DNA from: Haliclystus octoradiatus
Taxonomy: Eukaryota > Cnidaria > Staurozoa > Stauromedusae > Haliclystidae
Length of the DNA stretch: 64,000 nt
NCBI GenBank assembly: GCA_916610825.1
Contig: OU744446.1
Location: 36,929,833 to 36,993,832, forward strand
Direction: 5' to 3'
Under the pieces are notes generated by a model that had not been told where the DNA came from, did no database searches, and saw only the letters and a program-made list of their open reading frames with translations. The translations under genes were made by a program, and so were the position numbers. This document shows positions 7,680-22,600 of the stretch, in pieces; position 1 is the first letter of the stretch, and the number at the start of each line of letters is the position of its first letter.

Positions 7680-10600
7680 AACCAAAACTCGAAATTCGAG
7701 AACAACCAAGTGTAAGTGATTTACTGAAAGTAACGTACAATTACATACCTGTATTTACAATTAGATTTGACTAAAACAAAAACTGAAAAGTACTTACTTA
7801 TTATTTTTATGAACACTTTTATGTGAATTTCAAGTTACCTGGAGAAACCTGCCGTTTTTGATCTGTGGCGCTTGATCTGAAGATTAAAGGATATGCCCCA
7901 ATATAACCATGTTTGTATTAACATTCACTAAACGAGAAAAAGTTGTGAGACAAGGGTAAAGGGCTAAGAAATCACATACCTCTGAGGTGGGTGATTTTTC
8001 GCTTTCCAAGTTTATAACTTGAAGATGATTAGAAACATTTGCAAGCATGTGGCAAACAATTTCCTAAAATAAAAGAAACGGTGGAATCTCATTTGACAGT
8101 ACATTTCAAATTCAAGACTCGGGATTTCAATGTTATGTTAATGGGGATGTTAGGTACCGTAGTATATGTTGATGTACTACAGTCAGTAGGCCTACTTTTT
8201 CAATATGTGTTATACATACATTGCACTACGAAATTTGAAAATCTGAAAATTTATTGAAAACATACTTAAACCTTACCAAATATGCTACTGAATTGGGTAG
8301 TTTTCAGTAGCTTTCAAATTTTAAGTTGCATTTCAGTAGTTTTTCAGTAAAATGAGAAGAATCTGTATTTTAGTGTCTGGCGATTTTCAGTATGGTTTCA
8401 GTATCCAATCCCATCCCAGTATGTTTTCAGTAGGTTTTCAGTCCCGATTCAGTATATCCAAGATTCATAGTGTTGGCCATGAGTGGTCTCTAATGATGAT
8501 CTTTTAGGCTATCGCTACGTCATCTATTTGTTTATATAATTTACCTTCAAATTGGAATAGTTTATGATTTTGTGAATATTTCTGAAAATTCTTCAAGGAC
8601 TTTGATTTGATTTGAGATTTCAGATTTTATCTTATTGATTTGAGTCATATTCAGTTTGCAACTAATCATCTTTGAATACCCTCTATACGATGCTATCAGA
8701 CTGTCGTGATCATATTGCGTTCACTCGTTGTGATGAAAAACTACCTTTGAATTTAATTTTTTTTTATAAGTTGACCCTATTCATAGCATCTATATAATGA
8801 TAGTCATTAGTCATTAAGAATATAGTGCCATAATATAATCGTATAATTTGCCTACAATGATATGTTTTCTATTCCAGAAATATTTTTATGATCCTTAACG
8901 TATAAAATTCCTTACTGTGTGTTTTAATTTAGAACTGCAATCGCTCTAGATATGAGTCAGATGGTGTTAATCGTGGTTTATTACATGGAGAAGGAGGTGA
9001 AAATACCTTTCCAAAACTCATGGTAAGTATGTCGGCTAGCAATTGTGTACCCTAGACGCGTTGAGATTGTTCAGACATACAATATAACCTCCCCTGCGAA
9101 AAACAGTTCAGGAGTTCATGAACAGTTCATGAACGTTAAATGGCCCAATTTTCCTGAACTGTTCATGAACTATTCATGGACTGTTCATAAACAGTTCATG
9201 GACTCTCACCTGCAGTTCATGAAAATGTTGAACTCCTGAACTGTTGTCACAGGGGCTGTTCTATTATATGCATCTGAATTGTTAATCGTGAATTCTGTTA
9301 TTTACAAGTTTCTTTGTCAGCTATGTCTGACCATGATTTGTGGCGTTCTCTGTGTAGCAAATATGTAAAGTGTAAGAGGGACGACACATCCCTATAATGT
9401 GACTGTATATGCTACTACTACTACTACTACTACTACTACTACTACTACTACTACTACTACTACTACTACTACTACTACTACTACTACTACTACTACTACT
9501 ACTACTACTACTACTACTACTACTACTACTACTACTACTACTACTACTACTACTACTACTACTACTACTACTACTACTACTACTACTACTACTACTACTA
9601 CTACTACTACTACTACTACTACTACTACTACTACTACTACTACTACTACTACTACTACTACTACTACTACTACTACTACTACTACTACTACTACTACTAC
9701 TACTACTACTACTACTACTACTACTACTACTACTACTACTACTACTACTACTACTACTACTACTACTACTACTACTACTACTACTACTACTACTACTACT
9801 ACTACTACTACTACTACTACTACTACTACTACTACTACTACTACTACTACTACTACTACTACTACTACTACTACTACTACTACTACTACTACTACTACTA
9901 CTACTACTACTACTACTACTACTACTACTACTACTACTACTACTACTACTACTACTACTACTACTACTACTACTACTACTACTACTACTACTACTACTAC
10001 TACTACTACTACTACTACTACTACTACTACTACTACTACTACTACTACTACTACTACTACTACTACTACTACTACTACTACTACTACTACTACTACTACT
10101 ACTACTACTACTACTACTACTACTACTACTACTACTACTACTACTACTACTACTACTACTACTACTACTACTACTACTACTACTACTACTACTACTACTA
10201 CTACTACTACTACTACTACTACTACTACTACTACTACTACTACTACTACTACTACTACTACTACTACTACTACTACTACTACTACTACTACTACTACTAC
10301 TACTACTACTACTACTACTACTACTACTACTACTACTACTACTACTACTACTACTACTACTACTACTACTACTACTACTACTACTACTACTACTACTACT
10401 ACTACTACTACTACTACTACTACTACTACTACTACTACTACTACTACTACTACTACTACTACTACTACTACTACTACTACTACTACTACTACTACTACTA
10501 CTACTACTACTACTACTACTACTACTACTACTACTACTACTACTACTACTACTACTACTACTACTACTACTACTACTACTACTACTACTACTACTACTAC

Positions 10601-19600: not shown

Positions 19601-22600
19601 AAAGAATATACCTACCTAGGGGTAACTCTTCAAACATCTCTATCATTTCATAAACATATTCAAATGAAAAATCAGAAAGCTTCAATATCAATAAATCTTC
19701 TACAACATCTACCTCTTTTGTCCTTTCAAGTTGCCCTTGAAATATTCAACATGAAGATTGCACCAATTATCTCTTATGGTTTTCAAATCATTGCTCCATA
19801 TTTCAAATCTCTCCAGATAAATAAAATCAACAGTATTAAATCAAGATTTATGAAAAAAGCCCTGCGATTACCATCATCGTCTTCAAACTCCCTTCTGCAT
19901 TTACTTTGTCAGACACCAACATTTACAGGCCAACTGTCAAGTCGTTTTCCATTTTGTCCAAATGAACTTAATATAAGTATTGAAAAGCAATCTCTTAAAA
20001 CCCAAAAATGGATTGGAAAAGGCGCGTTGCTTTCACCAATGGCTAACATCACCTGGTTGAAGTTTAGAAATCAACAAAATCGTCATGTCATCACCCGCGT
20101 GTCAATTCATGGTTTCCATCATAAACTTTGCCTTGATAAATCATACCATCAACCATCATCAAGTTGTATATGCAAAGAGTGTGGCTCCAACGCATCTCAT
20201 TATCTTCACATTTTAGACTGTCCTGGAATACTGTCATATATGTCATATGCTAAGAAAAGTGACGATGAACATTAGCTCTATTGAGTATCATACCTTTCAT
20301 AGTTTAAATTTTCCGCTTTATTATTATTTTATGATGAAACTAAATCTAGCTTTCAATTAACCTATCTACACTATCAGTTTTAGCCTTAAAATTACAACAA
20401 CAACAAAAATAATAATAATAATAATAATAATTCCAAAATTTCTCCATGTCATAACTTTAGTTTGTCATTTACCTTTCTAAAATAAAATTTAACTACTTCT
20501 ACTAAATTTTACTTTATGTCATTAATTTTAGTATGATTATAACAAAATGTACAATATTTTCAAATGTAAATACCCCTGACCAAATCAATGTATCATAGCA
20601 AATTATCTTTTACCCTGAATTGGGTGCAAATATATGTATGAACTACTACTACTACTACTACTACTACTACTACTACTACTACTACTACTACTACTACTAC
20701 TACTACTACTACTACTACTACTACTACTACTACTACTACTACTACTACTACTACTACTACTATGCTGTTCATGCGCGTTAATTGACCCAATTCTCTTCAA
20801 CTATTCATAAAAAGTTTGTGAATAGGTATGGAAAGTTGATGGAAATGGGGCCATTGTACGTTCATAAATAGTTCATGAACCGTTCATGGACTGTTTTGGT
20901 AAGAAATGAACACAGTCTATGTTGTGGCCACATGAACTTAATAAAAAGTAAAACACGATGTGTACATTCATTTATTTCAGTTTCGTTACTTAAAAACCCC
21001 ATGCACAATATGTCTTCATATGTTCCTTACATCACATGGTTACCCACCATACCGTCATTATAAGAAGTTGGTATGCAGCAACCCTTCTCGTGTAAGCAAT
21101 GGTCATGTTCTTGTGAAGACAATTGAATGTCAAAATGAAACTGAACATCATTTCAGGTAATACCTACACGGAAATAACAAAGACTTCAGTAATACTATAA
21201 TTACTGCAATTAGTTATTGTAACAACAATAATTACTTCTGGTGCTGCAACATAAGCATTAATCAACATAAGCAATGCGAACGAAAATAAGAAACATGTTT
21301 TCAAAATTATATGGCTGCAAAATGATCACAATTCTTCAGTGATTACATGTTGTGACAACTCCTGCATGCTTTGTGGCTTTGGGATGAGCTTTTAACCACT
21401 GCATTACAAAAACATTCTTATTAGTTTTCAGATGACACCCTGATTCTTGCTAATACCATATAGCTAGATTGTTGAAAATCTATTAACACGAACAGTAGGC
21501 CCTAATGTATAATGATGAACACTTACCTTGCGCCCTATCACTATTGTGATTGCTTAGAACAGTGGGAGATCATATTAGATTCCTAATTATCGCGCCTATC
21601 GCGTTTAATGTAGTCTTGTCTGAGTAAGCAAAGGACTTAGTTGTGTTACAAATATATTCTTCCAGTTTAGCAAGCCCCATTGGTGTAGTTCCTCATCGTA
21701 TAATTTTCAACATAAATTTTTCCTGGCATTTGTACTAAATTGAAACAGTGATACCATCAAAGATAGTCTATTTGTTAGTTTAGTTAGTTAGCTAGTTGTT
21801 AGTATGATGATATTTTCTATATTTCATCTATTTTCACAGTTTGAAAGTTATAATTCAGAAGCCAAAGAAAACAAATAAAAAAGAAGACAGAATCATGCAT
21901 TTGAAAAATCCTTTGTCGCTTGATTTACACTATCATCAGAGGTCAGCTTTTGATTTTGTACTAACACAAAATGAAATGGATCAGGCATGCCAGGAACATA
22001 TAGAATGTAAGCCTGTGTAATAGTATGAGAATACTCTGTGTAAGCAGGATTGAGATAATATTACAATATGTTGAGTTATATGTAGAATTTTGCGAATTGG
22101 CTTATTAAGCCAAGGTCGACTTCAGAGGACTGTAATTATGACTGTCGCTTGAGGCCAAGAAAGGCAGGACAAGGAAGGAGAAGAGCCAAGATAAAAACAA
22201 CGTCAAGTAACTTTAGCAATATATTAACAACCTTATTTATCGGCCTGAAGACGAACAATCGTTAGGGGGTGTAAAATGACATGACACGAGGCATCTAAAC
22301 AATGGTTACAAATTGACCAATAAGAAACGCAATGTTGCAAAATGATACCAAATTTGGGAAATGCACATGATTTGACATAAAGCATGGAAACTCAACAAAA
22401 ACTAGTAAAAATGACAACATGGTAGTTAGTAACGATACAAAGAGACACATGAACAATGGATGTTACTATGGTGACGTTACTATGACAACAAATGTGGTGA
22501 TTAAGTTCTATATTATATGTGTTATTCATAATGAATAACAGCACCAAACAACTGGAATGAGATTACAATGTCTAAAAAACATGAGTATAATGAATAGATG

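Follow-up and report, generated by a model that had tools for sequence, protein, structure and literature searches.

Two related LINE families of Haliclystus octoradiatus with very probable orientation-specific insertion into (CTA)n microsatellites

Long interspersed nuclear elements (LINEs) that are specific for microsatellites are a known kind of mobile element. Waldo targets ACAY repeats, and Tx1-clade elements are found in microsatellite repeats; in the R1 clade (Waldo, SART, TRAS), the first open reading frame (ORF1) carries CCHC zinc knuckles. To our knowledge, the way in which a LINE acquires a fixed target is poorly understood, most known cases being old and complete. One survey assigns most reported target-specific families to the early-branched, the Tx1 and the R1 groups and places Togen, which comprises families specific for (TG)n in fish, with NeSL-related elements (PMC4640811). 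For R4/Dong, which has a restriction-like endonuclease, insertion into (TAA)n is reported for most insects, molluscs and cnidarians (PMC7998251). A literature search with subscription journals mostly outside it turned up neither a CTA-specific LINE nor any LINE from Haliclystus, and CTA was not found in print as a target. Here we describe a 64,000-nucleotide stretch of the genome of the stalked jellyfish Haliclystus octoradiatus (Cnidaria; GenBank assembly GCA_916610825.1, contig OU744446.1, here C1, positions 36929833-36993832; hereafter the window), in which two LINEs, A and B, lie between (CTA)n arrays. Searches of the entire 262 Mb assembly (33 contigs) make it very probable that A and B represent one LINE lineage with an apurinic/apyrimidinic endonuclease-like (APE-type) endonuclease, which inserts in a single orientation into (CTA)n tracts, often starting from the tails of an unrelated LINE, D, and continuing in arrays of its own.

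All features of the window described below are on the forward strand. A (CTA)n array at 9412-10882, consisting of (CTA)479 at 9412-10848 and interrupted short pieces up to 10882, forms the 5' border of A (10883-15373). The array at 15374-16386, with (CTA)319 at 15374-16330 and interruptions up to 16386, is both the 3' border of A and the 5' border of B (16387-20642), and (CTA)40 at 20643-20762 forms the 3' border of B. Beyond these three near-perfect arrays, no (CTA) or (TAG) run of at least three units is present in the 64 kb window. A sequence-only reading of this stretch had described two intact-looking but diverged LINEs of the same orientation, bounded on both sides by perfect (CTA)n. The arrangement and the divergence (49% identity for ORF2 and 37% for ORF1) were upheld. 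A is indeed full length with both frames open, whereas B is 5'-truncated, beginning within ORF1 at the array; the arrays contain long perfect runs but are interrupted close to the 5' ends of both elements. The 5' and 3' ends of A recur beside CTA in copies elsewhere, the 5' end being the same in all 12 other A copies that show it, and a B copy elsewhere (L128) has an apparent 5' untranslated region (UTR) of its own after (CTA)19. Both ORF2s match Exo_endo_phos and RVT_1 above the Pfam cut-off, with the APE-like endonuclease preceding the reverse transcriptase as in APE-type LINEs. Judged from their sequences, A and B represent separate families within one such lineage.

R4/Dong elements resemble A and B in being LINEs specific for a trinucleotide microsatellite; they differ in their restriction-like endonuclease and TAA target, whereas A and B have two ORFs, an APE-type endonuclease upstream of the reverse transcriptase, and CTA as the target, features that set them outside R4/Dong. 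The R1 group (Waldo) and Tx1 combine an APE-type endonuclease with a fixed target, as do A and B, and are likened to them here by these features and not by clade. The A/B target is CTA, and the zinc knuckles of R1-clade ORF1 were not detected: no zinc-knuckle family occurs among the Pfam matches of either ORF1 (E up to 1), and no such motif was seen by eye in ORF1 of A or in the truncated ORF1 of B. Togen families are likewise microsatellite-specific, but their target is a dinucleotide and they are NeSL-related.

To assess the insertion preference, we tabulated the flanks of A/B copies across the genome. A 5' end was scored as positive when (CTA)≥3 lay within 80 bp on the sense strand, full-length and truncated copies both being counted. 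CTA was found upstream of 48 of the 52 A/B 5' ends that could be determined, representing 32 distinct junctions, with start points lying between 1 (full length) and 4264 on the A element and between 1 and 3750 on window B. This count leaves out 15 junctions adjoining another A/B piece and 16 at locus edges or assembly gaps, as well as seven of the 11 negative calls of the script, which were judged to be internal or at a locus edge: two at an internal TAA tract, two at a rearranged piece flanked by CTA arrays on both sides, two at internal deletions (one of them L128) and one at 34 bp from the locus edge. The repeat phase is variable at truncated 5' ends, and 5' inversions of the twin-priming type occur in several copies (C7:12.66M, C5:17.97M, C8:3.86M and L128).

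The orientation of neighboring copies is uniform. All 126 pairs of A/B ends within 15 kb of each other are on the same strand, with none on opposite strands. When 130 A/B ends were grouped at 15 kb on the same strand, 78 groups resulted, of which 20 contain multiple ends and 16 of these 20 contain both families; A and B copies also sit in each other's arrays, head to tail. The region C5:6140954-6202594 (loci L017, L018, L021, L023, L027, L028, L030-L032, L050-L055 and L058) consists of about 60 kb of head-to-tail A/B copies, in part a tandem duplication of an A-B unit; one group of 19 ends on C5 results partly from segmental duplication of such a unit. In the loci compared, the arrays adjoining A/B range from 13 to 490 units with a median of 85 (n = 55, excluding arrays cut by a locus edge and a 66-unit array at C1:10.49M).

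The 3' ends were compared using identity to the window copy as a proxy for age. A terminates in ...TGCTTAA and B in ...GTATGAA, and CTA then follows in a fixed phase, directly after ...TTAA or ...TGAA in nearly all copies read. The DNA searches gave 99 candidates for the 3' end of A and 133 for that of B, of which the best 40 each were scored; for the 5' end of A, all 22 candidates were scored, giving 23 matches. The 3' tally comprises the scored rows that reach the 3' end (40 A and 37 B); rows stopping short were left out, including C5:11.22M and C2:26.89M, whose ends are without an array. At an identity of at least 96%, an array follows 24/24 scored A and 28/29 scored B copies, and the 29th B copy (L081) has (CTA)45 after an end that is nine bases shorter, so that all 53 scored young copies adjoin an array. 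At 90-95% identity an array is present at 8/9 A and 3/7 B copies, and below 90% at 4/7 A (five when C6:8789336, with its array shifted by one base, is included) and 0/1 B copies. Since arrays adjoin 53/53 young but only 16/24 older copies (Fisher p = 3.5e-5), the array preference is strong among young copies and declines with age. Array-less ends have a characteristic form: 9 of the 11 array-less B-type ends read (exact motif matches) run from ...GAACTAC into other sequence, one of the nine with a few broken repeats in between. Two more B ends, L085 and L086, belong to this array-less, single-CTAC kind. Three array-less A-type ends were read, two of them near-identical. Because most ends read outside arrays have just this form, the end of the element RNA probably includes CUAC. 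The finding that old copies end in a single CTAC within ordinary DNA suggests that homing to arrays has been strong only recently or is confined to a young lineage. The specificity for CTA therefore looks recent, and it is not absolute.

Taken together, the copies as sequenced show CTA on both sides, one orientation, a fixed 3' end and phase, variable 5' starts and occasional 5' inversions. A constant 3' end, variable 5' truncation and some 5' inversions are hallmarks of target-primed LINE copies. A microsatellite-specific LINE is recognised by copies, whether complete or truncated, that have the target repeat at either border and share one orientation, a pattern that many old A/B copies do not show. 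The sequence-only reading had proposed two possibilities, insertion specificity for the repeat or a tail that serves as the landing site of the next copy; the flanks bear out the former, and the locations of A and B in each other's arrays and downstream of D tails bear out the latter as well.

The left border of the first array contains a feature absent from that reading, namely the 3' end of D (about 9285-9411), which adjoins the array start at 9412 and whose tail is the array in which A appears to have landed. Four further D 3' ends that abut CTA share 80-94% identity with it over 126 bp. In two D copies, an upstream reverse transcriptase stretch is 27-28% identical to that of A, with RVT_1 confirmed by Pfam in one of them; we tentatively take D to be RTE-like. 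A 22-base D-end motif occurs 1,304 times in the genome (≤2 mismatches). In a roughly even sample of 20 D ends from the 100 exact matches listed on C1, the tails comprise 0-6 CTA units, and 91 D ends have at least 10 units (≤3 mismatches). An A/B end lies at most 8 kb downstream on the same strand at 11 of these 91 long D-tail arrays, compared with 0.11 expected by chance; within the same distance there is one A/B end upstream and none on the opposite strand. This excess indicates that a D tail was often the first target for A/B. Leftmost copies with CTA at D tails are those of the window, C1:11.45M, C6:27.44M and C7:12.65M, the last being an A copy after a D end that bears only about three CTA units, and leftmost copies with CTA whose left flank was not recognised as A, B or D are at C10:2.23M, C5:6.20M, C7:18.66M and C8:3.85M. 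The 3' ends of RTE elements in Lepidoptera give rise to microsatellites (PMC2887409), and D appears to seed CTA microsatellites likewise; the abstract of that paper mentions no second LINE targeting the tails, unlike A/B on D. Separately, loci L010 and L011 have CTA arrays without an A/B match in 10 kb, a D end lying about 4 kb off in L011. The two loci have TCTCAAATATA in common shortly before the array, perhaps the terminus of yet another element.

A related family, C, provides a comparison for the 5' repeats. Its ORF1 DNA is 67% identical to that of A, and its ORF2 is 46-48% identical at the amino acid level. Of the 11 C 3' ends retrieved to examine the tail, 10 carry (TATC)n and the remaining one carries (CATC)n (TATC tails were noted at L063, L064, L067, L088-L097 and L107). 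(TATC)n is present 5' of only 3 of 12 C copies (L063, L064 and L067), the copies without it being L065, L066, L098, L100-L104 and L106; L099, which has an internal deletion, and L105, with tandem 3'-end pieces beside (TATC)4, were left out. The difference from A/B is significant (Fisher p = 5e-6, or 7e-5 using the 32 distinct A/B junctions). Because the repeat precedes so few copies, C, by these counts, is a family with its own repeat tail but less target preference than A/B. Truncated C copies are mostly older, and age may add to the contrast. C was also considered as a second, TATC-specific lineage; this was dropped, the tail repeat being common and the 5' repeat rare.

These observations can be accommodated in a model of target-primed insertion. 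The ORF2 endonuclease would nick the (TAG)n strand, and the freed TAG 3' end would pair with the 3'-terminal CUA of the element RNA, priming reverse transcription, possibly aided by the 3' stem-loop. A nick and pairing within an array would therefore leave CTA on both sides of the new copy. Synthesis would often end early, giving 5' truncation, and double priming would give 5' inversion. The first landing would often be in the (CTA) tail of D; arrays could then grow, and further A and B copies would insert head to tail into the arrays of either family.

A further, tentative proposal, which we regard as possible rather than likely, is that the address is inherited via the tail and not specified by the endonuclease alone. 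Older B copies would have carried just one terminal CTAC and been surrounded by ordinary DNA. A copy that landed in a D tail would produce transcripts running into the array and thus bearing a longer CUA tail, which would pair with any (TAG)n nick and direct the next copy to another CTA array. If so, specificity would arise in one step by parasitism on D tails and would be self-reinforcing.

Several observations weigh against array-directed insertion as set out above. Four 5' ends are without CTA (L057, L129 and the pair L059/L060, the last two being duplicates of one region); the 3' end of the L129 copy (L086) also lacks an array, and the outer end of an old rearranged copy at C4:27.18M, which was scored as internal, is without CTA. 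CTA is likewise missing after the 3' end of L042 and after that of the L013 B copy. In a genome-wide motif count that is less selected than the scored rows (CTA units within 3 mismatches), at least four CTA units follow 43/50 A-type but only 46/79 B-type 3'-end motifs, and old copies are under-sampled in the scored rows because only the best-scoring candidates were taken. The sequence-only reading held that copies lying mostly outside the repeat, or CTA on one side only, would speak against specificity; young B copies are clear of this objection, and B as a whole only moderately so. At 80 of the 91 long D-tail arrays no A/B end lies within 8 kb downstream, and long arrays therefore also occur free of A/B. 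The copies at C5:6.14-6.20 Mb are not independent. Finally, we infer the nicked strand, the priming and the RNA end, and the history of the insertion sites is read from occupied sites alone.

Three other explanations of the flanks were weighed. If A and B inserted anywhere and their reverse transcriptase made the (CTA)n, the CTA at a 5' end would be the tail of an earlier neighbor. C and D do bear their own repeat tails, the 5' array of many copies is at the same time the 3' array of a second A/B copy, and A/B ends seem to bring at least one CTA themselves. We nevertheless consider a tail made by the element alone improbable: repeated landing on earlier tails in one orientation would itself be CTA specificity, the leftmost copies of clusters also have CTA on their left (at D tails or in unrecognised flanks), and the tail-making family C seldom has its repeat on the 5' side. 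Alternatively, arrays crossing over unequally could have carried A/B along, so that borders and orientation would not derive from insertion. Duplication does occur, since the A-B unit at C5:6.14-6.20 Mb repeats with identical junctions, and the greatest array lengths are compatible with such exchange; as the general explanation it is very unlikely, given that the many distinct 5' junctions, the twin-priming inversions and the starts at D tails are marks of retrotransposition and not products of crossing-over. Hardly any weight is given to random insertion followed by loss of copies elsewhere through selection or decay, with CTA arrays as a safe haven. Old copies outside arrays do occur, as this would allow, but the age trend runs in the opposite direction, arrays being universal at the scored young copies and less frequent at older ones.

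If insertion into CTA arrays is indeed a recent acquisition, A and B offer a rare view of how a mobile element gains a preferred landing site. A single genome holds, within one lineage, old copies outside the repeat and young copies inside it, together with the TATC-tailed relative C of weaker preference and the high-copy D supplying the target; the order of events may thus be readable and the roles of the endonuclease and the RNA tail separable. The association of a class of long microsatellites with nested LINEs also calls for caution in marker design and assembly.

The coding regions of the two elements are organized alike. ORF1 of A (11094-12254, stop TGA at 12252-12254) is predicted, in a low-confidence model, to have an N-terminal domain, a coiled coil and an RRM-like domain; a Foldseek search with this model returned nothing at E ≤ 0.001, human LINE-1 ORF1p scoring E 0.016. 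The features of an L1-type ORF1p are a coiled coil, an RRM and a C-terminal domain. ORF2 of A is an open frame at 12255-15074 (from the first ATG at 12300) that encodes the APE-type endonuclease, the reverse transcriptase and a C-terminal motif CX2CX8HX3C, and its best match by sequence among solved structures is LINE-1 ORF2p. A predicted model of the endonuclease was too poor (pLDDT 37) and was not used. In B, the 5'-truncated ORF1 (16388-17494, stop TGA at 17492-17494) is short by about 35 residues, as judged from alignment to A, and the ORF2 frame at 17495-20275 (from 17528) encodes an APE-type endonuclease and reverse transcriptase. The two ORFs share a reading frame in all three families, A, B and C, and are parted by a single TGA (in C, L063:2573-2575); the first ATG of A ORF2 is 45 nt past the TGA. 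The base after the TGA is C (T in one A copy). Of 16 A rows, which are not all independent, 15 retain the stop, as do 2/2 B rows. Readthrough of this stop is possible, as is reinitiation at an ATG 33-54 nt past it. Recent activity is supported by A copies of at least 99% identity that are stop-free within the stretches compared. With the window copy as reference, 25 of 27 A ORF2 rows have a ratio of nonsynonymous to synonymous differences per site (pN/pS) below 0.7, and the ORF1 rows have values of 0.36-1.43, from small counts in rows that are not independent; the pattern fits recent activity and a constrained ORF2. No relative turned up in a scan of viral contigs.

Near their 3' ends, A has the stem-loop ACCC-TGTTAT-GGGT (15345-15358), 15 nt ahead of the CTA junction, and B has ACCC-TGAATT-GGGT (20612-20625). 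The corresponding stem of C, GCCU/AGGC, differs from ACCC/GGGU of A/B by two compensatory changes. Taken alone, the hairpins are no more stable than shuffled sequences, and that of C is not the predicted minimum; 3'-end stem-loops are common among stringent-type LINEs (PMC3747384). The 3' UTRs of A (15145-15201) and B (20410-20430) also contain an internal (ATA)n/(TAA)n tract, and at C1:11.456M such a tract has undergone expansion and rearrangement.

An Rfam scan of the window at gathering scores gave no match. Outside the two elements, a minisatellite of about 40 copies of 33 bp lies at 23930-25245 and is related to GTTCATGAAC palindromes scattered across the window, and an 18-bp tandem repeat, ACCACCTCCTGGAATGGC, at 46116-46301 is possibly coding. 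Elsewhere in the assembly, mitochondrial COX1 (C33) is open under code 4, with AGR judged to sit at the usual arginine positions.

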